Shown one piece after another: positions 51,723-64,000 of a stretch of 64,000 nt of DNA. This DNA is from Pseudomonadota bacterium (GTDB taxonomy: Bacteria > Pseudomonadota > Gammaproteobacteria > JAADHS01): positions 1-64,000 of the forward strand of contig JAKACW010000013.1 of assembly GCA_021821045.1 (NCBI GenBank). The letters run 5' to 3'. The translations under genes and the position numbers were made by a program. Each line of letters opens with the position of its first letter. Position 1 is the stretch's first letter. The notes under the pieces are model-generated. The model made no database searches and was not told the origin of the DNA. It saw only the letters and a list, made by a program, of their open reading frames with translations.

Positions 51723-52514
51723 CTATTTCGCGACTTTGCCGGCCCGGTTCTGCATGTACGCATCGCGCACGAACAAGTACGGATCCAATGCGTCGCGTTT
51801 AATGGCCTCGTATGTGTCTTTATCGAGCGAAATTTCGTTCACCGCCTCGACTGCTCGCGAGCCCCAATAAGGCTTTTCATCGAGGTAGATATACTTCGGA
51901 TCCATGACGCCGTCCACCAAGCGGCCAATACCGTCGCGGACGTTGCTGGGTCCAAAAACCGGAATAACCAGGTACATACCGGGCTTAAATCCGTACACTC
52001 CAAGCGTTTGACCGAAGTCCTCATCTTTACGGCGCAACCCGGCCTGCTCTTTAGCGGCATCGAATAACCCGCCGACGCCCAATGTCGTGTTGATCGCAAA
52101 GCGGCCCAACTCGTTCCCCGCGTCGTTAATCTTCGCCTGCAGTAAGGCATTGATAAAGCGCGCCGGACTCGTCCAATGGCTGAAGAAGTTCGCGATGCTG
52201 GCCCGGACATCTTCGGGAAGAACGCGGAAGGCCTTGGCGGCAGGCTTCAGCACATAAAAGTAGAGTTTGTCGTTGAACCAAAAGAAGCCTCGATTCATGG
52301 TTTCGAGGGGGTCGGATACCGGCGGCGGACCGTCGGCGTCGAATTCGTCCTCAAACTCATCGTCGAATTCGTCGGTGAATTCTTCATCGCCATCGTCCGT
52401 CATGGCGCTCGCGTCGGGATCCTCCATCTGCGCGAGCACGCCGGACGCCTCAGCGTATCCGGCTGAGTGCCAAAATATCAAAGGCAGTAGAATGAGGAGT
52501 CGCAGCGAATTCAT
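51723..52514 (-). CDS. mlaA: MlaA/VacJ family outer-membrane phospholipid channel, no lipobox Cys
   Basis: A 263-residue protein. The MlaA core is clear: DPLETMNRGFFWFNDKLYFY, WTSPARFINALLQ, DEDFGQTLGVYGFKPGMYLVIP, RDGIGRLVDGVMDPKY. It extracts or exports phospholipid at the outer membrane with MlaC. Unusually, the signal peptide (MNSLRLLILLPLIFWHSAGYAEA) has no lipobox cysteine, whereas VacJ proteins are normally lipoproteins. A 25-residue acidic tract (EEFTDEFDDEFEDEFDADG) precedes the core. I start at the ATG at 52514; the frame upstream to 52622 overlaps mlaD and is not convincing. Confidence 0.9.
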   Translation of the reverse strand: MNSLRLLILLPLIFWHSAGYAEASGVLAQMEDPDASAMTDDGDEEFTDEFDDEFEDEFDADGPPPVSDPLETMNRGFFWFNDKLYFYVLKPAAKAFRVLPEDVRASIANFFSHWTSPARFINALLQAKINDAGNELGRFAINTTLGVGGLFDAAKEQAGLRRKDEDFGQTLGVYGFKPGMYLVIPVFGPSNVRDGIGRLVDGVMDPKYIYLDEKPYWGSRAVEAVNEISLDKDTYEAIKRDALDPYLFVRDAYMQNRAGKVAK

Positions 52515-52533
52515 GGGTGAGCGAAAGAACCCG

Positions 52534-52983
52534 TTATTCTTCTTTCTGGAAAATATATTTGCTGACAAGTTCTTCCAAGCTGATGGAGGACTCAGTTTCC
52601 ACGATTTCAGCGCCGGGCTCAATGAAAACGTCCGATCCGCCGGGTGAAATGTTGACGAATTTGTCTCCGATAACGCCGGCGGTTCTGATCGAGGCGATGG
52701 CGTCCTCTTGCAGTTTCACGTCGCCGTGGATGGCCAGTTGCACCACGGCCTCATAATCGCCGTTGTCGAGATTGATGCGGCTTACTTTGCCGACGCGCAC
52801 TCCGGCGATCTCCACCACTGCGCCTTCTTTCAGGCCCGATATCGAGGCAAAGCGTGCCGAGACGTTGTAGTGGTTTTGCTCCCCGAAGGACAAATCGCCG
52901 AGCTTGATCGCCAAGTAGGCAAAGCTGGCGATACCCGCGATGACAAAAATTCCGACTGCAAATTCGACGTTCAAGCGTCTCAT
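52534..52983 (-). CDS. mlaD: MlaD-type MCE protein
   Basis: A 149-residue protein with one N-terminal helix (FAVGIFVIAGIASFAYLAI) and a single MCE domain (FASISGLKEGAVVEIAGVRVG, VVQLAIHGDVKLQEDAIASI, IGDKFVNISPGGSD). MlaD hexamers bind lipid and contact the permease. Length matches E. coli MlaD (183) minus its C-terminal tail. CAGGAG precedes the ATG. Placed between mlaE and mlaA. Confidence 0.92.
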   Translation of the reverse strand: MRRLNVEFAVGIFVIAGIASFAYLAIKLGDLSFGEQNHYNVSARFASISGLKEGAVVEIAGVRVGKVSRINLDNGDYEAVVQLAIHGDVKLQEDAIASIRTAGVIGDKFVNISPGGSDVFIEPGAEIVETESSISLEELVSKYIFQKEE

Positions 52984-53010: not shown

Positions 53011-53799
53011 TTACAGTAAAACGGCGCTGAGCACATAGTCGCCGGCCAAAATGGCCACCGACGCCAGCACAACCGCGTTGGTCGTAATTCGGCTTACGCC
53101 CTCGGCGCCGTAGGCTCCGTTGCGGTCCAAATGAAGAAAAAATCCCTTGGCGGTAGATATCCATACAATTAAAAGCCCGAAGACGAACGACTTAATCAGT
53201 CCCATCTCGACGTCTTTCCATACCACGCTTTCATACATGGCCTGGAAATAAGTCCCTTCGTTGACGCCAAATAAAATGACGGCGACAAAATAACCGCCGA
53301 GGATTCCGACGACGTCGAACAGACTGGTCAGCAAAGGCAAGGAAATGATGCCCGCGACCAGTTTCGGAACGATCAAATATCGATAGGGATGAATGGCCAT
53401 GCACTCGAGGGCATCGATCTGCTCCGACGTACGCATGATGCCGATTTCGGCGCACATCGCCGATCCGGCCCGTCCGATGACCATCAGCGCGGTAAGGACG
53501 GGGCCGAGTTCGCGCAACAGACCCAGCGCAACGGCGGAGCCCAGCAGATCCAGCGAACCGAAGCGCTGCAGGGTGTAGTACCCCTGAAGGCCGAGCACCA
53601 TGCCGGTAAAGCCCCCCGCAACGAGAATAATAAATACCGAACGCGCACCGATGAAATGAACCTGGCGGACGATTGAATAGATCGGGTAGGGCGGCGTAAG
53701 TGCTTTCGCCAGACAGGAAAACAGGAAAATACCCATGATCCCCGCCTGCTCAACGAAATAAATGCAGTTGTCTCCGAGCCGTTCAATGGCTTTGCGCAT
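53011..53799 (-). CDS. mlaE: MlaE-type lipid ABC permease (cluster 1)
   Basis: A 262-residue permease of the MlaE family with segments FIILVAGGFTGMVLGLQGYY, LGPVLTALMVIGRAGSAMCAEIG, the EQIDALECMAIHPYRYLIVPK coupling helix and TNAVVLASVAILAGDYVLSA at the C-terminus. Start at ATG 53799 is preferred to 53838 by length. It begins the cluster mlaE-mlaD-mlaA-mlaC. There is no mlaF ATPase or mlaB gene next to it, unlike the usual mlaFEDCB order; a second MCE cluster with an ATPase lies about 5 kb away. Confidence 0.92.
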   Translation of the reverse strand: MRKAIERLGDNCIYFVEQAGIMGIFLFSCLAKALTPPYPIYSIVRQVHFIGARSVFIILVAGGFTGMVLGLQGYYTLQRFGSLDLLGSAVALGLLRELGPVLTALMVIGRAGSAMCAEIGIMRTSEQIDALECMAIHPYRYLIVPKLVAGIISLPLLTSLFDVVGILGGYFVAVILFGVNEGTYFQAMYESVVWKDVEMGLIKSFVFGLLIVWISTAKGFFLHLDRNGAYGAEGVSRITTNAVVLASVAILAGDYVLSAVLL

Positions 53800-54135
53800 A
53801 AATTCTTCTTTCCGTTCCTTGGCGCGCGACAGGGTCATCTTCTATCACGGGCAATAAAAGGGGTCAAATTCCCGTGCTTTAGTAACGATCTTTCGAGTCC
53901 CGTGAGTTGTTTATCGACTGTTTGGCGCTTGGTCTTAATCGCTCCGCGAAAACGCGCGCTGACGAGGGGTGCCCCCACCTTTGCACGCGACGCAACCCTT
54001 AGATTGCTGTGGCACCGGCGGGCGTCGCTCCTTGGCTACACTTATGACTTTAGCCAGCCATCCTTATAGCGGCGGTGTCGGCCGAGATCTACGATTGTCT
54101 TACTCTGCCATTCGTTGTGAAGACGGAGGCTCTCT
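53800..54135. other. Divergent spacer between mlaE and the CBS gene
   Basis: About 330 bases with no convincing coding frame or palindrome. It must contain the promoter of the mlaEDAC cluster and that of the CBS gene. A weak TATGACTTT-like box at about 54043 could be a -10. Nothing else seen. Confidence 0.5.
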
Positions 54136-54876: not shown

Positions 54877-55062
54877 TCACGGCTTACCGCCGCCGAATCT
54901 TTGATCGTGTTCCTCGCGCCGCCGCTCGGCATTGGCGAGGATCCTCTGTTGCTCGTTCTCCGTTGCGCTCGCCCAGCGGACAATTTCTTCAAGCGAGCGA
55001 AAGCAGCCGAGACAGATGTCGTCGGCGTCCAGGCAGCAGTTGCGCACACAGGGGGATTTCAT
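54877..55062 (-). CDS. DUF1289 small iron-sulfur-type protein
   Basis: A 61-residue protein beginning MKSPCVRNCCLDADDICLGC, the DUF1289 cysteine signature (SPCVxxCxLD...CxGCxRxLEEI), followed by the conserved WASATENEQQRIL and an Arg-rich tail. The cysteines may coordinate a metal or Fe-S cluster; the function is not established. Its start overlaps the DUF502 stop (ATGA, 55059-55062), so the two are co-translated. Confidence 0.9.
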   Translation of the reverse strand: MKSPCVRNCCLDADDICLGCFRSLEEIVRWASATENEQQRILANAERRREEHDQRFGGGKP

Positions 55063-55772
55063 GGCGAGGCCGGTGGCGCCGCGGTGTTCACCGCGTCCGC
55101 ATTCGGCGCGCTCTTCGAGTAGTGAATGCGATCGGGCGCGACAGCGCCGCCGGACATGATGAAGGTCATGGCCTCGTCAATGGTCCAGTCGGTGGACACG
55201 ACGCGTTCGAGCGGCACGATTTCCAAATAACCGGAGGTCGGATTCGGCGTCGTCGGCACGTACACCGCGGCGAGCTCGGCGCCCGTGGCATGGTCCTTCA
55301 GTATGCGGGTGACGAAACCAACGGTTTTCATCTCCGGCGTCGGAAATTCGATTAACACCACCCGCTGCACTTTGTCCGGCTTTTGCTGCAATGCGCTCAA
55401 CAGTTTCTTGATGGCGCCGTAAACGGTTTGAACCAAAGGAATGCGATTGATTACCCAGTCCATCATCGCCAACATGCGTTTGCCAATCACCATGTTGGTA
55501 AACCATCCGAGGAGGTACAGGGCCAGAATCGTCAACAGCACCGCGACCAAGGACTGAAACCAGGGCTGCAAGAACCATTCGGCGAGATCGGGCTGGAATT
55601 TCTCCACCGTTTTGGACAGGGCGCGCGCACCGGGGCGCCCCACCTGCGATAGTTGCTGGAAGAAAAACTCGAACACGATCCAGGTCAACCAGATGGGAAT
55701 GACCGTGAGGATCCCCGTCAAGAAGTAGCGCGGAGCATGCCGAAAGAGGCGTCTGGACTTTTCCTGCGCCAT
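55059..55772 (-). CDS. DUF502 membrane protein
   Basis: A 237-residue protein with two hydrophobic segments (YFLTGILTVIPIWLTWIVFEF and SLVAVLLTILALYLLGWFTN) and the DUF502 pattern: IPLVQTVYGAIKKLLSAL, VVLIEFPTPEMKTVGFVT, VYVPTTPNPTSGYLEIVP, MTFIMSGGAVAPDRIHY. The family is an inner-membrane protein of unknown role in bacteria. It lies seven bases after the NUDIX gene and overlaps DUF1289, forming a nudix-DUF502-DUF1289 operon on the minus strand. Confidence 0.92.
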   Translation of the reverse strand: MAQEKSRRLFRHAPRYFLTGILTVIPIWLTWIVFEFFFQQLSQVGRPGARALSKTVEKFQPDLAEWFLQPWFQSLVAVLLTILALYLLGWFTNMVIGKRMLAMMDWVINRIPLVQTVYGAIKKLLSALQQKPDKVQRVVLIEFPTPEMKTVGFVTRILKDHATGAELAAVYVPTTPNPTSGYLEIVPLERVVSTDWTIDEAMTFIMSGGAVAPDRIHYSKSAPNADAVNTAAPPASP

Positions 55773-55779
55773 GGGGTTT

Positions 55780-56334
55780 CTACCTCGGGACCGTTATGGC
55801 GGATGTTTTGTCGATCATGCGGTGAATGGATGCGTCAAACGGCATCGCTGCCAGAGCATCCAGTGTAAACCAACGCAGATGGTTCGATTCGTCCGATATC
55901 GCCAGCGTGTCCGTCGGATCGGCGACAAAGCAAAATCGAATGTCGAAGTGCTCGTGAGCGGGTTCGTCGCCGCGGCCGGGGATGGGGTGAATGTCGACAT
56001 CGAAGATGGCCGTCGCGGCGTGTGCAAGGTCGGCGAGCCCCGTTTCTTCACGGGCTTCGCGCAATGCCGCGCTGAGAACGTCCGAATCTTGTTCGATATG
56101 CCCGCCGGGCTGCAGCCAGCGATCCAATTTGCGATGATGAACGAGAAGCACTTGCCGGCGGTCGGGGCTGACCAGCCATGCGGAGGCGGTGACGTGCCCG
56201 ATCAAGTGACTGCGCCGCCAAAAGGCCTCGGGCGCGGAGCGCACGAACGCCAGCAGCCGGTCGCGATGGGCGGTTTCCAGCGCATCATGGGGTTGGTGTT
56301 GGGTCAACAAATCGATTACTTGATTGGGGTTCAT
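55780..56334 (-). CDS. NUDIX hydrolase
   Basis: A 184-residue NUDIX protein. The Nudix helix region reads GGHIEQDSDVLSAALREAREETG, with REAREETG intact but Ser at the position of the first conserved Glu. Flanking blocks are LIGHVTASAWLVSP, VLLVHHRKLDRWLQPGGH and FDIRFCFVADP. It would hydrolyse a nucleoside diphosphate linked to another moiety; the substrate is unknown. I start at the ATG at 56334; the frame is open for 140 residues upstream, but that part is arginine-rich antisense-like sequence overlapping the lipoprotein gene. Confidence 0.88.
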   Translation of the reverse strand: MNPNQVIDLLTQHQPHDALETAHRDRLLAFVRSAPEAFWRRSHLIGHVTASAWLVSPDRRQVLLVHHRKLDRWLQPGGHIEQDSDVLSAALREAREETGLADLAHAATAIFDVDIHPIPGRGDEPAHEHFDIRFCFVADPTDTLAISDESNHLRWFTLDALAAMPFDASIHRMIDKTSAITVPR

Positions 56335-56381
56335 CGGCTTGGTCGGTGGCGGATATTGGGCCAATTCTAAGGAACCGCCGA

Positions 56382-57002
56382 TCAATTCGCCAGCGCGGGG
56401 CGGCGAGTAGTCTGCGCGGCGCCGACCATGTCCTGCACCAGTTGGGCAAAAATCTTGTCCACCGCCTGATCGAAGCCGGCCGCGACCTCGTGCATGGAAC
56501 GGCCCGTGTCGACGGAGGCGCGATAAGTCTTGCTCATTGCCGGCGCGGTTTGACCATGGCGAAAAAGTTCCAACTCCAACGCGACCTCGGCCCGACTGGC
56601 CGATGTTCCGACGACTCTCTCGAACCGCAAAATGCGACCGCGAACGATCCAGTCGGTCGGTTGCGCGGGATCGTAGCGGCTCACCTGCGCCGCCGTGCTG
56701 TTCGCGCGGAGGAATCCAATGAGCTGCTCTTGAAGCAAGATTGATGGATGAGTCGACCATAGGTGATAGTCGTAACGCTGAATTTCCAAAGGTTGCGCTT
56801 CATCGACAAACAAGATGGCGCGGTCGCGGTAAATGCCGTCGGCTTCCAGCGCCGCGACGGCGATCTGGCCCTCGACTGCGGCGGCAGTCTGCGCTGTCGC
56901 CGATCCACCCAGACGATAAAAATGATCCTGGGGAACAGGCGGTGCGCTTGAACAGGCTGTCAACGCTGCGACCACCAGCAAATACGCCATTCGGATCGTC
57001 AT
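56382..57002 (-). CDS. PqiC-like ABC-transport auxiliary lipoprotein
   Basis: A 206-residue lipoprotein (signal AYLLVVAALTAC, C17) of the ABC-type transport auxiliary/PqiC family: DHFYRLGG near the start, IAVAALEADGIYRDRAILFVDE, a RYDYHLWSTHPSILLQEQLI segment, and a C-terminal helix with QLVQDMVGA. Such proteins sit at the outer membrane and work with MCE proteins. It overlaps the MCE gene by four bases (ATGA, 56999-57002), at the downstream end of the second MCE operon. Confidence 0.88.
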   Translation of the reverse strand: MTIRMAYLLVVAALTACSSAPPVPQDHFYRLGGSATAQTAAAVEGQIAVAALEADGIYRDRAILFVDEAQPLEIQRYDYHLWSTHPSILLQEQLIGFLRANSTAAQVSRYDPAQPTDWIVRGRILRFERVVGTSASRAEVALELELFRHGQTAPAMSKTYRASVDTGRSMHEVAAGFDQAVDKIFAQLVQDMVGAAQTTRRPALAN

Positions 57003-57943
57003 TGCGCCATCCCTCGGTCGGGCGGTGGCGAACCGCTGATTAGGCTGGACGGATTGCTGCGAATCTGGCGGGTAAACTCGTTGGCGTTGCGGCTGGCCGA
57101 CTCCAGATGAAACACAATCGACTCGATGTGCGTCGAGACGGTGCGGGTGGTGTGGCGCAGGTCCGTCAGCGTCTGTTTGATGTCATCGGAATTGCCGCTG
57201 ATAATGCCGTCGGTCTTGTCCAAGATGGCGCTGAGCTTCTGATTGGTTGCGTTCAACCCGTTGCTCAAGTCGGCGAGACTTTGCACCGTGTTATCGGCGT
57301 TGGTCATAATGCTGACGAGGCGGGTTTGGTCTACGCTTGCCACGATGCGGGCAAGTTGATCCGAGGCCCCTGCAAGTTTGGACAGCGTCGTTTCAAGATC
57401 TTGCGTGACCATGGGCAGCGTGCTCGACAATTGACCGCCGATGGCATCGACATGCCGGTTCAAGGAGTCCAGAAGTGGCTTGATGTTGTTGCGCGACAAG
57501 TCCTGGAATTCGTTGGACACCGCATCCACCGCGGCCATGACACCGTCGGGAGCGTCGCTGGTTATGGCGTTTCCGGCTGGGAGCGTCTCGGTCGAGCGGC
57601 CTTCCGAAATGTCGATGGTGCTGTCGGAAAGCAGCCCCGGCGAAGTGATGCGCGCCACGCTGTCGCGCGGGATGGGCCAGTCTTCCCGCACGGCCAACGC
57701 CAGGCGAAAGCGGGTTTGCCCCGCTTCGCGCAGCGGTGAAATGCCCGCGACGGAACCGATCTGATATCCGCCGTAGGTGACGGCGCTGCCTTCGCGGATA
57801 TCGGTAATGTTGCCGAAGACAGCGTAGTAGGTTTCCACTGCGTGGCTGCCGCGGCTCAACTGCAGCAGCGTCGCAACCAACAGCGCGAAGGCGGCGATGA
57901 CAAAGATGCCGACGGCGAAGTAGTTTATTTCTTCTTGTTTCAC
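56999..57943 (-). CDS. MlaD/PqiB-like MCE-family protein
   Basis: A 314-residue protein starting with GTG at 57943: one N-terminal helix (FAVGIFVIAAFALLVATLL), one MCE domain (YYAVFGNITDIREGSAVTYGGYQIG, VAISPLREAG-like strand), then about 170 residues of helical coiled-coil-like sequence (LVSIMTNADNTVQSLADLSNG, SIVFHLESASRNANEFTRQI). The C-terminal coiled part may form a tube or needle, as in related MCE proteins. Partner of the ATPase, permease and lipoprotein of the same cluster. Confidence 0.9.
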   Translation of the reverse strand: MKQEEINYFAVGIFVIAAFALLVATLLQLSRGSHAVETYYAVFGNITDIREGSAVTYGGYQIGSVAGISPLREAGQTRFRLALAVREDWPIPRDSVARITSPGLLSDSTIDISEGRSTETLPAGNAITSDAPDGVMAAVDAVSNEFQDLSRNNIKPLLDSLNRHVDAIGGQLSSTLPMVTQDLETTLSKLAGASDQLARIVASVDQTRLVSIMTNADNTVQSLADLSNGLNATNQKLSAILDKTDGIISGNSDDIKQTLTDLRHTTRTVSTHIESIVFHLESASRNANEFTRQIRSNPSSLISGSPPPDRGMAQ

Positions 57944-57966: not shown

Positions 57967-58776
57967 TTAGCGCTGCTTGCCGGTGAGTCGGCCCAGATAA
58001 GCCTCGGTGTCCACGTCTTCCTCGCGCGGCCGACGGTTGAGCATGTTCTGCACGCGTTCGATGTCGCTGTTGCGCACCTCGTCCACGGTGCCGGTGATGA
58101 GGATCTTGCCTTGGTCCAGCATGGTGATGCGATCGGCGACCTTGAACGCGCTTTCCAGTTCATGGGTGACGATGACGATGGTCATCTTCATGGCATTGCG
58201 CAAGCGCAGGATCAGCTCGTCCAGTTCCGCTGACACCACGGGGTCCAACCCGGCCGAGGGCTCATCGAAGAACAACAGCTTGGGATCCATGATCACCGCC
58301 CGCGCCAAGGCCGCGCGCTTGATCATCCCGCCGGACAGTTCCGAGGGCATCAAATCCTCGAATCCGGCCAGGTTCATAACCTCGAGTTTCATGCGCGCCA
58401 TGATCCGCATGGTGTTCTCATCAAGTTTGGTGTGTTCGCGCAGCGGCAGCATGACGTTCTCGCCCACGCTAAGGGAGCCGAACAGCGCACCGCCTTGAAA
58501 CGCGACGCCCATATCGCGCCGAATGGCAAACATTTCTTTTTTGCTGACCCGGGTGATGTCCTTCCCCAACAGCTTGATGCTGCCCGAGGTGGGTTTGCGC
58601 AGGCCGAGCAGGTGGCGCAACAGAGTGCTCTTGCCCGAGCCGCTGCCGCCCATGATCACCATGACCTCGCCCTTGTAGACGTTCAGATTGACGCCGTCGA
58701 GGATCTGCCGCTCGCCGTAGTGAGTGACCAGGTCTTGAACCTCGATTACCGCTTCGCGTTGGGATTCGGAAGTCAT
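57967..58776 (-). CDS. MlaF-type ABC ATPase (cluster 2)
   Basis: A 269-residue ATP-binding protein: Walker A GGSGSGKST (K49), LSGGMIKRAALARAV signature, LLFFDEPSAGLDPVVSAELD Walker B, IVTHE H-loop. The short signature with GGM and the LDPV stretch are typical of MlaF-like lipid-transport ATPases. It lies between the permease and the MCE gene. This is the only MlaF-type ATPase in the window, while cluster 1 has a permease without one. Confidence 0.92.
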   Translation of the reverse strand: MTSESQREAVIEVQDLVTHYGERQILDGVNLNVYKGEVMVIMGGSGSGKSTLLRHLLGLRKPTSGSIKLLGKDITRVSKKEMFAIRRDMGVAFQGGALFGSLSVGENVMLPLREHTKLDENTMRIMARMKLEVMNLAGFEDLMPSELSGGMIKRAALARAVIMDPKLLFFDEPSAGLDPVVSAELDELILRLRNAMKMTIVIVTHELESAFKVADRITMLDQGKILITGTVDEVRNSDIERVQNMLNRRPREEDVDTEAYLGRLTGKQR

Positions 58777-58785
58777 GACGCGTTC

Positions 58786-59580
58786 CTATGTGTTCAAGAA
58801 GTAGGTGAAAACCATGTCGGCGAGCACGATGAAAGTGATGGACAGCACCACTGATCGCGTGGTCGCCCGGCCGACGCCTTCCGCGCCGCCGCGCACCTGA
58901 AAACCGTTGCTCAAGCCCACCATGGCGATAATGACGGCGAAAATCGCGCTTTTGATCAAACCTTGGCGAATGTCGTCGATGGCGAGCGCTTCGAGCGTTC
59001 GGTCGAAATAAACGCCGAACGACATTTGCAGCTCGACTGCGGAATATACGGCGCCGCCGAGAATGCCCATAAAGTCGCCAAGAATGGTCAGCGCCGGCAC
59101 CGCCACCAGCATCGCGAGGAAGATCGGCGCGGCGAGATAGCGCACGGGATTGACTCCAATCACGCGCAACGCATCCACCTCCTGGGCCTCGACCATGGTG
59201 CCGATGCGGGCGGTAATGGCCGAACCGGACCGTCCGGCGACCAGGATGCTGACGATCAGCGGCGAGAATTCGCGGGTTACGGACAGCGCGATGCCGATTA
59301 CGACCTTGGACTCGGCGCCATAGGTCTTCAGCGTATCGATGCCTTGGATGGCGAGCATCACGCCGACGGCGAAACACAACATGGAGGCAATGCCGACGGC
59401 GGCCACGCCGATCATCATGATTTCGCGGAAGATGGCCGGAACGCGAACCGGTTGATGGCGAAATTTGCCGGCGAACAGCCAGTACAGACTCTCACCCAGC
59501 AAAACGGTGATATAGCCGAATTCCTCGATACCCCGCAGGGTTCGGCGCCCGATGCCGCCGACCATCGTCCTTATGGCCAT
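58786..59580 (-). CDS. MlaE-type lipid ABC permease (cluster 2)
   Basis: A 264-residue permease: FREIMMIGVAAVGIASMLCFAVG, SVTREFSPLIVSILVAGRSGSAITARIG, the EVDALRVIGVNPVRYLAAPIFL coupling helix and TTRSVVLSITFIVLADMVFTYF at the C-terminus. It is a paralogue of the mlaE at 53.0-53.8 kb. The ATPase gene follows after nine bases and the STAS gene precedes it by 12 bases, so all belong to one transcript. Confidence 0.92.
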   Translation of the reverse strand: MAIRTMVGGIGRRTLRGIEEFGYITVLLGESLYWLFAGKFRHQPVRVPAIFREIMMIGVAAVGIASMLCFAVGVMLAIQGIDTLKTYGAESKVVIGIALSVTREFSPLIVSILVAGRSGSAITARIGTMVEAQEVDALRVIGVNPVRYLAAPIFLAMLVAVPALTILGDFMGILGGAVYSAVELQMSFGVYFDRTLEALAIDDIRQGLIKSAIFAVIIAMVGLSNGFQVRGGAEGVGRATTRSVVLSITFIVLADMVFTYFLNT

Positions 59581-59592
59581 TGCGAGCGCTTT

Positions 59593-59919
59593 CTATGCGT
59601 TGATTGCTTCGTCGACGTTCTGGAAGATCGGGAACACTTTGTCGAGGCGCGCCAACTGCAGCACTTGCATGGCGGCATCGCTCACGCCGACCAAGCCGAA
59701 GCGCGACTTGTTGTTGCGCGCCAGTTGGTAACCTTCCACCAGACTGGCCACGCCGGAGCTGTCGATGTATGACACGCCGGAGAGGTCAATAAGCACGTTG
59801 CTCTTCTTGTTCAGATGAGCAAGGATCTGTTCGCGGGCTTTTGGGGAATAGTAAAGATCCACTTCGCCCGAGAGCGCGATGATGGTGTAGTCGCCGGCTG
59901 ATTTGATTTCGTACTCCAT
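59593..59919 (-). CDS. STAS-domain protein (anti-sigma antagonist/MlaB type)
   Basis: A 108-residue STAS protein: YTIIALSGEVDLYYSPKARE, then VLIDLSGVSYIDSSGVASLV. S55 in DSSG is at the position phosphorylated in SpoIIAA-type antagonists. It sits directly before an MlaE-type permease gene, where MlaB, the STAS partner of MlaF, is expected, and directly after a HATPase kinase and PP2C phosphatase genes, where an anti-sigma antagonist is expected. The sequence alone does not separate the two roles; it may do both. Confidence 0.85.
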   Translation of the reverse strand: MEYEIKSAGDYTIIALSGEVDLYYSPKAREQILAHLNKKSNVLIDLSGVSYIDSSGVASLVEGYQLARNNKSRFGLVGVSDAAMQVLQLARLDKVFPIFQNVDEAINA

Positions 59920-59960
59920 GGGTTACGCTTCCTTAATTGCTGGCCATGACACGTTGGCGT

Positions 59961-60371
59961 TTAACTTCGACGTTTCTTCATTACTAACACGTTGCCGATC
60001 CCTTCCGGATCGTTGCGGAAGTCCACATCATCCATGACTTCGTTAATAAGGTGCACCCCAAGCCCGCCCGGCCGAATGTCGTCCAGGTCGCGGGAGCGGA
60101 TCTTGGTTTTGTCCACGGGCGGCGCGAAATCGGTCAGCCGAAAGACGGTTTCGCGGCCGTCGTCGAATATCTCAAGTATGACCTCGCCACTGTGATTCGG
60201 ACCATAGGCGTGTTGAATCACGTTCATGCAGGCTTCATTGACCGCCAACACCACGCAGTTCAACGCTTCCGGCGTAAAACCCAGCCATTGAATCGTTTCC
60301 CGGACGCGGTTGCGCACATCGGCGAGATGTTCCGCGTTGGAAATAAACCGTATTTCTTCGAGCTTAGGCAT
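59961..60371 (-). CDS. HATPase-type serine kinase/anti-sigma factor (RsbW-like)
   Basis: A 136-residue GHKL kinase-type protein with the N box (LAVNEACMNVIQHAYG) and the G box (RPGGLGVHLINEVMD). No dimerisation His domain is present, as expected for RsbW/SpoIIAB-type kinases that phosphorylate STAS antagonists. The next gene downstream encodes a STAS protein with the matching Ser, and the upstream gene encodes a PP2C phosphatase, so the set forms a complete partner-switching module. Confidence 0.9.
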   Translation of the reverse strand: MPKLEEIRFISNAEHLADVRNRVRETIQWLGFTPEALNCVVLAVNEACMNVIQHAYGPNHSGEVILEIFDDGRETVFRLTDFAPPVDKTKIRSRDLDDIRPGGLGVHLINEVMDDVDFRNDPEGIGNVLVMKKRRS

Positions 60372-60377
60372 AAAAAT

Positions 60378-62066
60378 CTACTTGGTTTGGGCGCAGCCGT
60401 CGACCACCACAAGAGTGAGGTCATCACGCAAAGGCACATCACCTGAAGTGAATTCGCGAGCGATTCGGTCCAGCCGATCTTGCGGAGATAGATCGGCTAC
60501 CTGACGCAGCAAGTTGAGCAATCCTTTGAAGCCCATCTCCTCGCCGTTGGCTTTGTGTCCCTCGGTCACGCCGTCCGAGAACAAATATAGACTCGATCCA
60601 TCTATGGAAAACTTTTTGGCGGGGTAGGTCATGTTAGCCATTACGCCCAGTGGCGGCCCCGAGGCTTCCAGTTTGCCGAACTTGCCGTCCGCGCCATGCA
60701 CCACAGCGGGCATGTGTCCGGCGTTCACCATGATCACTTCCTTTGTCTTCGGATTATATAGGCCGGCGCACAAAGTGACGAACATGCCGCGGGTCGACGT
60801 TTCGCACAGCTCATCGTTCAGGACGGTCAACAGTTGGGAGGGATCATTGATGCGCTTGCCCAAGCAGCGAAACAAGCTGCTGGTTTTCGCCATCAGCAAC
60901 GCGGCGTTGACGCCCTTTCCGGATACGTCGCCCAAATTGAAGTAGAGCCTGCCGTCGGGCAGCGCGAAGCAGTCATAAAAGTCGCCCGACAACTGGCGGG
61001 CGGAGAGATTAATGCCGTAAACGGCCTGGCCCGGTTCCGTAGATTTGGGCAACAGGCTTTGCTGAATTTCCCGCGCCAGTTCCAGTTCCCGGTTGAGTTC
61101 GGATTGCAGTTCGTCGCGCTCTTTGAGTGTTTGCTGCAGCCGCCACGTCAATTCCTGATAGCTGAGATTGGCCTCGACCAAGCGTAAATTGGCCTCGCGC
61201 ATGATTTCTTCGAAGTCCTGTTGCTCTTCGATCCCCAGTCCGAGAGCGTCGGCGGCTTCTTTGACGCTGTGGGGCATCTGGGCGAGCAACGCATTCGCCG
61301 CGTCGCCGTCGATGTCGAAGTAGTCGGCAAGCCAGAAGCGGCATTTGTCCAGCACAGCGCCTTTCTCGTTGGCGGAGTAAACCGCCGCCATCCAGTCGGC
61401 GCACAGCAGCGCTTTGGCCAGTTGGGGGGAGTCGGCGGAGCAGGCGTGATGGGAGCCGATAGCCTCGGTCAGGTCCGCGGGGAGCGACCACGTCTGTCCG
61501 AGTTTGCGCCCAATTTGGTCGTGCGTCGTTTGAAACTCGCCAAGTTCCTTGCCGTAGCGTGTATCCGGATCCATTGCGCGCATATCCGCCCATAACGGCG
61601 CGGCCTCCGGCGCAAGGAAGAACATGATCAACAGGCCGAAGTCCTGCAGCAGTCCGGCGGTAAAATAATTGTCGCCGTTGTCTTTGAGCATTTCGCCCAA
61701 CAAACGGGCGGCGACGGCGCGGCGAATGGCTTCTTCCCAGAAACTGGCAATGTCAAAGCCGGGAATGGCGTCGCTTTTCAAGGCATCGCGCACGGAAACG
61801 CACAGTGCCAGATTGCGCAGCACTCGCTGGCCCAGCACGTTCACCGCACGAGGTATGGATTGAATCTCGCGCGATAAGCCGAAGTAGGGTGAGTTGACGA
61901 CGCGCAGCAATTCGGCGGTCAGCAGCGGGTCGCTGGCTGCAAGTTGGGACAGCGCATCGTGGTGGATGTTGGGGTTGGAGCAGGCGCGCACGATTTTCAG
62001 CGCCGCTTGCGGCGGCGCAGGCAGATCTTTCGGCGTCAGCCGCTCGACTTGGATTCCCCCGTTCAT
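60378..62066 (-). CDS. HDOD-domain PP2C (SpoIIE-type) serine phosphatase
   Basis: A 562-residue protein: HDOD domain (about 15-210; LLTAELLRVVNSPYFGLSR), a linker coiled coil (about 270-330; RLVEANLSYQELTWRLQQTL), and a PP2C/SpoIIE phosphatase domain (GDFYDCFALPDGRLYFNLGD, DVSGKGVNAALLMAKT, MVNAGHMPAVVHG, LYLFSDGVTEGHKANGEE). It would dephosphorylate the STAS protein of the same cluster. HDOD domains are linked to signalling, so a signal input on this phosphatase is likely. It ends six bases before the kinase gene. Confidence 0.92.
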   Translation of the reverse strand: MNGGIQVERLTPKDLPAPPQAALKIVRACSNPNIHHDALSQLAASDPLLTAELLRVVNSPYFGLSREIQSIPRAVNVLGQRVLRNLALCVSVRDALKSDAIPGFDIASFWEEAIRRAVAARLLGEMLKDNGDNYFTAGLLQDFGLLIMFFLAPEAAPLWADMRAMDPDTRYGKELGEFQTTHDQIGRKLGQTWSLPADLTEAIGSHHACSADSPQLAKALLCADWMAAVYSANEKGAVLDKCRFWLADYFDIDGDAANALLAQMPHSVKEAADALGLGIEEQQDFEEIMREANLRLVEANLSYQELTWRLQQTLKERDELQSELNRELELAREIQQSLLPKSTEPGQAVYGINLSARQLSGDFYDCFALPDGRLYFNLGDVSGKGVNAALLMAKTSSLFRCLGKRINDPSQLLTVLNDELCETSTRGMFVTLCAGLYNPKTKEVIMVNAGHMPAVVHGADGKFGKLEASGPPLGVMANMTYPAKKFSIDGSSLYLFSDGVTEGHKANGEEMGFKGLLNLLRQVADLSPQDRLDRIAREFTSGDVPLRDDLTLVVVDGCAQTK

Positions 62067-62111
62067 GTCTATCTTTTTCGGCAGGAATGAGGGATTTGAT
62101 TACAGTTAAAT

Positions 62112-63452
62112 CTAGGTGTCCTTAACTTGTATTGCGAGTAAGGTATAGTCGTCGCGCTGAGGTTCGCTTCCGCGAAACGCTAACAGGGACTGTTGAACGG
62201 CATCGACGAGCGCGCGCGGTTCGCTTGGGCTGGCGGCCAAGATGGCGCGCAGGCGATCCACGCCAAAGGTCTGTCCGTTGGCGTCGCGGGTTTCAATCAC
62301 GCCGTCGGTATACAGGAACAAAGTGTCGTCCACTTCCAACTGGCGTTGCTCGTCGGTCCAGGCATAGGATTTTTCCACACCCAACGGAATGCCTTCGCCA
62401 CCGGTGAGCGGTGTGACGTTGGCGGGATCGGACGCCGGTTTGAGCAGGGCCGGAGGGTGGCCGGCGTTGCTGTAGCGCAAGGTGCGCGACGGGCGATGAA
62501 AGTTGGCGATGAAGGTGGTGGTGAACGTGCCGCGGATGCGCCGCGTAAACAAGTGGCGATTGACGTAATTCAAGACGCAGGCGGGGCCGTCGGACACCCG
62601 TCCGCTGTAGGTGCGCAAAATGGCGTCGAGCATGGCGGCTTCGACCGCGGCCGATGCGCCGTGACCGGCGACGTCGGCAATAATTGCGCCCCAGACGTCG
62701 GGTTCGGCGTCCCGCTCGGGGTGGCTGCGCAGGCTGACCAGATCGAAATAGTCTCCGCCGGCTCGGGCAAACGTATTGAAGCCGAACGCGGAGATCATGC
62801 CCGGAATGTGACGATCCTCCTGCGGCAGCAACGTCCACTGTATGTTGGCAATCTCATCCAGCTCGCGCTCGATCCAGGCGTTGGCATGGCGCAGCTCGGC
62901 CACGTCATTGAGGCGCACGACGTAGGCCGCCGCCAGATTGGCCACGGCAGTGAGCGAGGTGAAATCGATGTCGGCGAAGCCGGCGGCATCGGGATGAAAC
63001 AGCAGGACCCAATTTTCCACGCTGCCGGATATATATATAGGAAGAGCGATGACTGCGTTGAACTGGCCGAGATAGGGCCCGAGCACGGTTTTGAGGCCCA
63101 CCGGCAGGGGTGAGGCCGCCTCCGGAGTGGCCGATTCGCTCAGCCCGTCGAAAAACTCATCCCTAAAGTGGGGCCCCTTTGGATTGGCGCTGAACAGCAG
63201 CGGTGTCTCCGTGATGGTGCCTTTGTGGGGGCAGTACTGAGCGGTAACTTGCCATTGTCGCAGCCCCAGGCCGTTGTTCGAGACCACGACCACCCCGGTG
63301 TCCTGACCAATACCGCAAATGACGCAATCCACGAACCGGCGAAACAGCGAACCGGCGGACGGAGAAGGTTGGCTGAGCGCCTTCAGATGGCCCAGGAGCT
63401 GAACGAGTTGTCCGTTCGGAGCGTTGGGCTGGCAATGGGAGGGGCGTGTCAT
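62112..63452 (-). CDS. GAF-like/PP2C (SpoIIE-type) serine phosphatase
   Basis: A 446-residue phosphatase from the ATG at 63452. The N-terminal half (about 20-200) looks GAF-like (GVVVVSNNGLGLRQWQV, FNAVIALPIYISGSVENWVLLF). A coiled stretch (HANAWIERELDEIANIQWTLL) leads to a PP2C/SpoIIE domain (GGDYFDLVSLRS, IIADVAGHGASAAVEAAML, RYSNAGHPPALLKP, LFLYTDGVIETRDANG). It is a second phosphatase for the partner-switching set, with a sensory input distinct from the HDOD one. It lies 45 bases upstream of the HDOD phosphatase gene. Confidence 0.9.
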   Translation of the reverse strand: MTRPSHCQPNAPNGQLVQLLGHLKALSQPSPSAGSLFRRFVDCVICGIGQDTGVVVVSNNGLGLRQWQVTAQYCPHKGTITETPLLFSANPKGPHFRDEFFDGLSESATPEAASPLPVGLKTVLGPYLGQFNAVIALPIYISGSVENWVLLFHPDAAGFADIDFTSLTAVANLAAAYVVRLNDVAELRHANAWIERELDEIANIQWTLLPQEDRHIPGMISAFGFNTFARAGGDYFDLVSLRSHPERDAEPDVWGAIIADVAGHGASAAVEAAMLDAILRTYSGRVSDGPACVLNYVNRHLFTRRIRGTFTTTFIANFHRPSRTLRYSNAGHPPALLKPASDPANVTPLTGGEGIPLGVEKSYAWTDEQRQLEVDDTLFLYTDGVIETRDANGQTFGVDRLRAILAASPSEPRALVDAVQQSLLAFRGSEPQRDDYTLLAIQVKDT

Positions 63453-63547: not shown

Positions 63548-64000
63548 ATGACCACAAAGCGGGTCACACACGTCACCGGATATGCTCGATTCGCTAAGAT
63601 CGACGGTCGTCACCCGCTGCGCGATGCAGTGCCTAACTCATCCGTCGACTATAACGCCCGCCAACGCCCCGACGGCCAGGTCTTCTACTTCAACTTCGAT
63701 CTCGCCAAGGAGATGGGGCTGATCTCCCGCGATCACCCGCCGGTGATCAATAGCGCTTTGGCCAAAGCCATTCTCGATACATTCTCGATTGTCATTATCA
63801 ACGAATACGATTTGATCCATAAGACACCCATCGCGCCGCACAGCGTAAAACGCCATGCCTACATGGCGACGCGATATTTGCAGTTGCAGCATCCGAGCAA
63901 GAACGGCGAGACATCGGGTGACGGCCGCAGCATTTGGAACGGTCACTTTCGCGGCCGCGGCGTGACGTGGGATGTGTCGAGCTGCGGCACGGGCGCGACC
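63548..64000 (+). CDS. Conserved protein of unknown function, 3' truncated by the window
   Basis: The frame opens at the ATG at 63548 (MTTKRVTHVTGYARF) and runs off the window end. The 151 residues seen contain KIDGRHPLRDAVPNSSVDYN, VFYFNFDLAKEMGLISRDHP, IINEYDLIHKTP, ATRYLQLQHPS and NGETSGDGRSIWNG, ending in GVTWDVSSCGTGAT. These blocks look like a conserved family. The GDGR motif recalls SelO-type pseudokinases (UPF0061), but I cannot confirm this. Divergent from the PP2C gene. Confidence 0.6.
   Translation, partial: MTTKRVTHVTGYARFAKIDGRHPLRDAVPNSSVDYNARQRPDGQVFYFNFDLAKEMGLISRDHPPVINSALAKAILDTFSIVIINEYDLIHKTPIAPHSVKRHAYMATRYLQLQHPSKNGETSGDGRSIWNGHFRGRGVTWDVSSCGTGAT

Follow-up and report, generated by a model that had tools for sequence, protein, structure and literature searches.

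What does a partner-switching module control when the genes that follow it encode a lipid transporter? The question is raised by an operon in the window, the 64,000 nt stretch of a gammaproteobacterial contig (JAKACW010000013.1) analyzed here, in which genes for two PP2C phosphatases, an RsbW-type HATPase and a STAS protein run directly into those for an MCE transporter. We favor, at a probability of roughly 0.6, the reading that the output of this module is the MCE lipid transporter itself, reached via a detachable MlaB-type STAS subunit that would be phosphorylated on S54.

Genes of the operon

Eight genes were confirmed by an ORF and Pfam reading of the window, all of them on the minus strand between positions 56382 and 63452 and separated, from the first phosphatase gene to the lipoprotein gene, by gaps of 45, 6, 41, 12, 9, 23 and −4 bases. 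The gene order, single strand and short gaps of the original prediction were borne out, with Pfam domains found for all eight genes; its interval of 57967–63452 holds the order correctly but omits the last two genes, as the operon reaches 56382. No terminator-like site was seen on the minus strand between the STAS gene and the transporter genes.

The first gene (62112–63452) encodes a SpoIIE-family PP2C phosphatase (PF07228, E = 6e-45) whose sequence contains the active-site motifs. Its start was placed at the ATG at 63452; the frame can also be opened from a TTG farther upstream, at 63557. This protein had been described as GAF-like, a label without Pfam support, as its N-terminal region matched no Pfam family, GAF included, even at an E value of 5. 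A single-sequence AlphaFold2 model of this first PP2C had a pLDDT of 34, too low to use. In most relatives this phosphatase lies outside the conserved core, and in another genus a GAF-PP2C occupies the phosphatase slot of the module (L108). The conserved phosphatase of the module is the HDOD-PP2C protein (60378–62066; PF08668, E = 7e-48 and PF07228, E = 2e-43), which shares the SpoIIE-family PP2C domain with the first and is encoded upstream of the HATPase in most relatives. The HATPase (59961–60371; PF13581, HATPase_c_2, E = 3e-26) has RsbW 6m36 as its top PDB match and is the predicted serine kinase for the STAS protein; its R20, E46, N50 and GGLG motif are invariant among 29 relatives (PGGLG lid). 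In several genera, the PP2C and HATPase are fused in a single ORF (L098, L113, L130, L133 and L140).

The 108 aa STAS protein (59593–59919; PF01740, E = 4e-21) is followed by an MlaE-type permease of 264 aa (58786–59580; PF02405, E = 4e-65), an MlaF-type ATPase with a C-terminal extension that includes Y260 and L264 (57967–58776; PF00005), a long MCE protein of 314 aa with an MlaD domain (56999–57943; PF02470, E = 1e-13) and an ABC_trans_aux (PqiC-like) lipoprotein (56382–57002; PF03886, E = 1e-9). The nearest NCBIfam model to the ATPase is MlaF, and its top PDB matches are MlaF proteins. MlaE, MlaF and MlaD-domain proteins thus occur together in the operon, with scores below the strict equivalog cut-offs for the E. 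coli-type Mla system.

Association of the module with MlaF

A search of 274 gammaproteobacterial genomes with the HATPase alone returned matches in 61. The loci of the best HATPase relatives nearly all carry the PP2C-HATPase-STAS series, mostly with transporter genes next, and the same arrangement was found across 80 contigs, almost all from MAGs, that span the Chromatiaceae, Thiotrichaceae, Legionellales, Ectothiorhodospiraceae, Methylococcaceae, Thiohalobacter and others. Transporter genes lie directly after STAS on the same strand in ~90 of 109 distinct STAS-bearing loci; since nearly all of these loci were found via the kinase, the adjacency of transporter genes was not selected for. At the loci of distant HATPases in the class, PP2C and STAS genes were present with no MCE operon adjoining.

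The kinase clade and the MlaF clade, the latter taken as ~60% identity or more to the MlaF of the window, occurred together in 44 of the 274 genomes, a pairing that spans 29 families, with the kinase alone in 1, MlaF alone in 3 and neither in 226. Fisher's test gave p = 4e-46; as the genomes are related, the 29 families are the fairer count. The sole genome with the kinase clade and without the MlaF clade is 77% complete, and the MlaF clade is missing from all 16 genomes whose only HATPases are distant ones. Genomes G066 (97% complete) and G235 (100%) encode an MlaF of this clade with no module and no matching STAS, and the MlaF gene of G011 is at the edge of its contig. The gene order that was originally described for this one contig is conserved in other genera, and the conservation goes far beyond what chance would give.

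The arrangement of the genes varies between relatives. The layout of the window, type A, is STAS-permease-MlaF-MCE-lipoprotein, and L259, L268 and L338 also belong to this type, though they had been sorted automatically as STAS-MlaF without a permease on account of overlapping open frames. In L338 (4259–6028), the permease and ATPase seem to share one ORF of 590 aa. In type B, STAS-MlaF is followed by a different permease (30–36% identity to that of the window), a short MCE protein and often MlaA. In type C, the module stands beside a CHASE2 cyclase or alone and MlaF-permease-MCE is found elsewhere; this MlaF clade was present in 7 of the 9 type C genomes tested, and no STAS gene was found near MlaF in seven of these operons (~3–5 kb per side, one operon being ended by a contig edge), the module being present in the same genomes. 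Type D keeps STAS-MlaF together and has its permease cluster at another site (L276/L277 with L200/L212), and type E has STAS-permease with this MlaF nearby on the opposite strand (L208, L219 and L267). Loci from another class of the phylum (L343:64–4329 and L345:4980–10936) show a reversed order of MlaE, degenerate MlaF-like ORF, MCE, TPR lipoprotein, HATPase and STAS, the module coming last in the operon; the degenerate MlaF-like ORF of these loci had no Pfam match. The kinase, STAS and MlaF remain paired while the permease is swapped, moved or separated, and their partnership is thus preserved across rearrangements.

In several loci without transporter genes, a CHASE2-cyclase gene lies directly after STAS (L096:9896–12139, L103:8921–11164, L124:9834–12077, L138 and L141), and in 13 of 51 type A loci such a gene follows the lipoprotein gene. 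The cyclase is a possible second output or sensor of the module. These positions also lend something to a reading that we consider unlikely, in which the module acts on a sigma/anti-sigma factor or on the CHASE2 cyclase, the MCE genes share its transcript only because they belong to one envelope response, and STAS never touches MlaF. The genomes that have this MlaF without the module would fit such an arrangement, as would the partial correlations between protein distances computed across 48 operons, which were 0.25 for STAS-HATPase, 0.24 for STAS-permease and 0.01 for STAS-MlaF; this mirror-tree test gave no specific signal of STAS-MlaF coupling. Mere co-transcription sits poorly, however, with the type C genomes, where a module set apart from the transporter is accompanied by this MlaF in 7 of 9 cases, with the almost one-to-one co-occurrence of the two clades in 29 families, and with helix-2 residues that set the module STAS apart from other partner-switch STAS proteins (see below). 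It is also at odds with the lack of a sigma gene on the contig: sigma-70 region-2 matches number 13 in the genome and none on this contig, in line with the earlier observation that no sigma factor lies nearby. No sigma factor is thus encoded with the module as its output, although this would not be required of non-sigma variants. The conserved operons, the co-occurrence in 29 families and the reversed order in another class together give good support to the view, already taken in the original prediction, that the module serves the MCE transporter and not a sigma factor.

A second MCE cluster on the minus strand of the window may extend the reach of the same module. It comprises an MlaE permease that lacks a dedicated ATPase (53011–53838; PF02405, E = 1.5e-74), a short MCE (MlaD) protein (52534–52983; PF02470, E = 1e-19) and an MlaA/VacJ lipoprotein (51723–52622; PF04333, E = 1.5e-68). 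The genome has a single MlaF of this clade and the contig has two permeases (at 58786 and 53011) with no other ATPase of the kind, so that both transporters may be under a single switch. The ortholog of the second permease is encoded beside this MlaF clade in type B and C relatives, and the permease may be a further client served by the one MlaF/STAS unit. A DUF502 protein (55059–55772) and a NUDIX-domain protein (55780–56760) are encoded on the same strand between the two MCE clusters. Elsewhere in the same genome (G000), contigs C53 and C66 (L294 and L295) carry an MlaF-E-D operon of the canonical kind, which includes an MlaB-like STAS, and an Mpc-like permease whose N-terminal region resembles STAS; three STAS arrangements therefore coexist in this organism.

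The STAS protein and the MlaF extension

By family model and by fold, the STAS protein is of the RsbV/SpoIIAA type and not MlaB. It scored 75.5 bits against TIGR00377 (cut-off 53.45) and 30.8 bits against the MlaB model NF033618, below the cut-off of 90 and hence outside the MlaB family. Its closest folds are TM1442, RsbV and SpoIIAA, with TM-scores of ~0.85 for RsbV/SpoIIAA against 0.57–0.65 for MlaB. In its AlphaFold2 model (pLDDT 95), helix 2 covers residues 54–70 with S54 at its start, and the spacing of S54, A58, E62 and Q65 puts them on one face of this helix. The E. coli MlaF-MlaB interface is centered on helix 2 of MlaB (PMC7367683).

SpoIIAA S58, RsbV S56 and MlaB T52 all align with S54, the first serine of the DSSG motif, and this position is kept as Ser or Thr in most MlaB proteins as well. 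The residue first proposed for phosphorylation, S55, is off by one; like the GAF label it has to be corrected, while the link between the module and the MCE transporter is well supported. The second serine of DSSG as a discriminating phosphosite was ruled out, as both SpoIIAA S58 and RsbV S56 align to the first.

D21, Y51, S54, A58 and E62 are present in 101 of 101 module STAS proteins. Against a small, mixed control set of 18 other partner-switch STAS proteins and 48 MlaB-like domains, D21 and Y51 were found in 13/18 of the former, and in the latter D21 occurred in 3/48 and Y51 in 0/48; A58 was found in 0/18 and 34/48, and E62 in 0/18 and 17/48, respectively. The comparison is suggestive of a signature in which the kinase-contact residues D21, Y51 and S54 are combined with an MlaB-like helix-2 residue, A58. 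Published contacts between RsbW and RsbV are R23-D23, E49-S56, S48-Y53 and D42-R84/R87 (PMC7340262). The first three correspond to R20-D21, E46-S54 and N45-Y51 in the module, which are invariant or nearly so, and the last is lost on both sides.

Such conservation bears on the suggestion, to us very improbable, that STAS is a constant structural substitute for MlaB and that the kinase and phosphatases have no regulated coupling to it. E. coli MlaB is indeed a structural and catalytic requirement (PMC5016091), yet a constant subunit would leave the invariance of the HATPase catalytic residues and of the STAS kinase-contact residues across families unaccounted for, along with the PP2C-HATPase fusions kept beside STAS. 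The STAS protein occupies the place that would otherwise fall to MlaB or a fused STAS domain, bears the kinase-facing residues of RsbV, and looks like a stand-in for MlaB.

As references we used sequences of E. coli MlaF and MlaB whose key positions (Y261, L265 and L266 of MlaF; T52 of MlaB) agree with those in PMC7367683. The C-terminal extension of MlaF is conserved in 85 relatives of the window's protein, with Tyr260 in 77/85 and Leu264 in 85/85; these match Y261 and L265, the E. coli residues that dock in the MlaF-MlaB groove (PMC7367683), and lend indirect support to binding of the STAS protein by MlaF. The extension is absent from the MlaF of STAS-fused (Mpc-like) systems (10/10). A shorter extension is present in the Veillonella MlaF, which has no MlaB (PMC10665443).

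A proposed switch and its relation to known systems

In the switch proposed here, unphosphorylated STAS would dock on MlaF by its helical face, where it would support MlaF assembly or ATPase activity. Phosphorylation of S54 at the start of helix 2 by the HATPase would yield a STAS protein that no longer docks, so that transport would fall, and dephosphorylation by the HDOD-PP2C, here perhaps with the second PP2C, would restore transport on receipt of a signal. The genes and their order, the conservation, the co-occurrence and the residue signatures are observed; we infer the STAS-MlaF contact, the phosphorylation of S54, the direction of its effect, the signals and the use of one MlaF/STAS unit by two permeases. 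MlaF assembly in E. coli depends on MlaB (PMC7367683, PMC5016091), and a switch of this kind fits the MlaFB structure in that the phosphomimic MlaB T52E weakens MlaF binding (PMC7367683). The T52A variant keeps binding yet abolishes ATPase activity (PMC5016091), and simple on/off docking may thus be too simple. Counted against the preferred reading are T52A, G066 and G235 without the module, the STAS-MlaF partial r of 0.01, the RsbV type of the STAS protein and the Veillonella extension without MlaB. We give about an even chance to the broader proposition that a serine kinase and PP2C phosphatases gate an MCE transporter via a removable STAS, that this is widespread, and that it acts on one or two envelope transporters sharing an ATPase.

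The module could also be wired in the classical manner. In the RsbW/SpoIIAB systems the output protein is kept bound by the HATPase until STAS frees it (PMC7340262), and the HATPase here might bind and inhibit the transporter in place of a sigma factor until drawn off by unphosphorylated STAS. HATPase-MlaF distances show a weak partial correlation (0.20) that would agree with this, but we regard such wiring as decidedly unlikely. To our knowledge, no HATPase binds MlaF. STAS proteins do (PMC7367683), and it is the STAS gene, not the HATPase gene, that adjoins the permease or MlaF gene in most layouts.

If the proposed switch is right, partner switching would reach beyond transcription to the movement of lipids between membranes, its signal determined by interchangeable sensor domains (HDOD or GAF) of the phosphatase, and many proteobacteria, mostly uncultured, may use phosphorylation to start and stop lipid transport. 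We know of no kinase for MlaB. PMC7367683 and PMC5016091 both pose it as an open question if MlaB is regulated by phosphorylation and what would be responsible; these operons encode candidates for the kinase, the phosphatases and the acceptor site within a single genetic unit, which makes the question directly testable.

Partner switching and STAS-bearing MCE transporters are each known, and no description of the two combined was found in the open-licence literature, relative to which their combination in one operon is new. The transporter resembles E. coli MlaFEDB in its MlaE permease, MlaF with C-terminal extension, MCE protein and stand-alone STAS (PMC7367683, PMC5016091), but its STAS is of the RsbV/SpoIIAA type, with a C-terminal helix, kinase-contact residues and its own kinase and phosphatase, and the operon has no MlaC. 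Brucella Mpc (MpcEFDA) likewise unites MlaE, MlaF, a long MCE protein and a PqiC-like lipoprotein in one operon; there the STAS domain forms part of the permease, with no kinase reported, whereas here a separate STAS gene directly precedes the permease gene (PMC12436622). The STAS protein SypA of Vibrio fischeri is under Ser kinase control by way of SypE, its output mechanism being described as unknown, and this pair controls biofilm formation with no transporter link described (PMC4517449, PMC10120452). With RsbU-RsbV-RsbW and SpoIIE-SpoIIAA-SpoIIAB, the module shares a PP2C, a STAS with a phosphorylatable serine, a HATPase kinase and contact residues (PMC7340262, PMC11418112); in contrast to those systems, this operon has no sigma factor, and its apparent output is an ABC-type lipid transporter.
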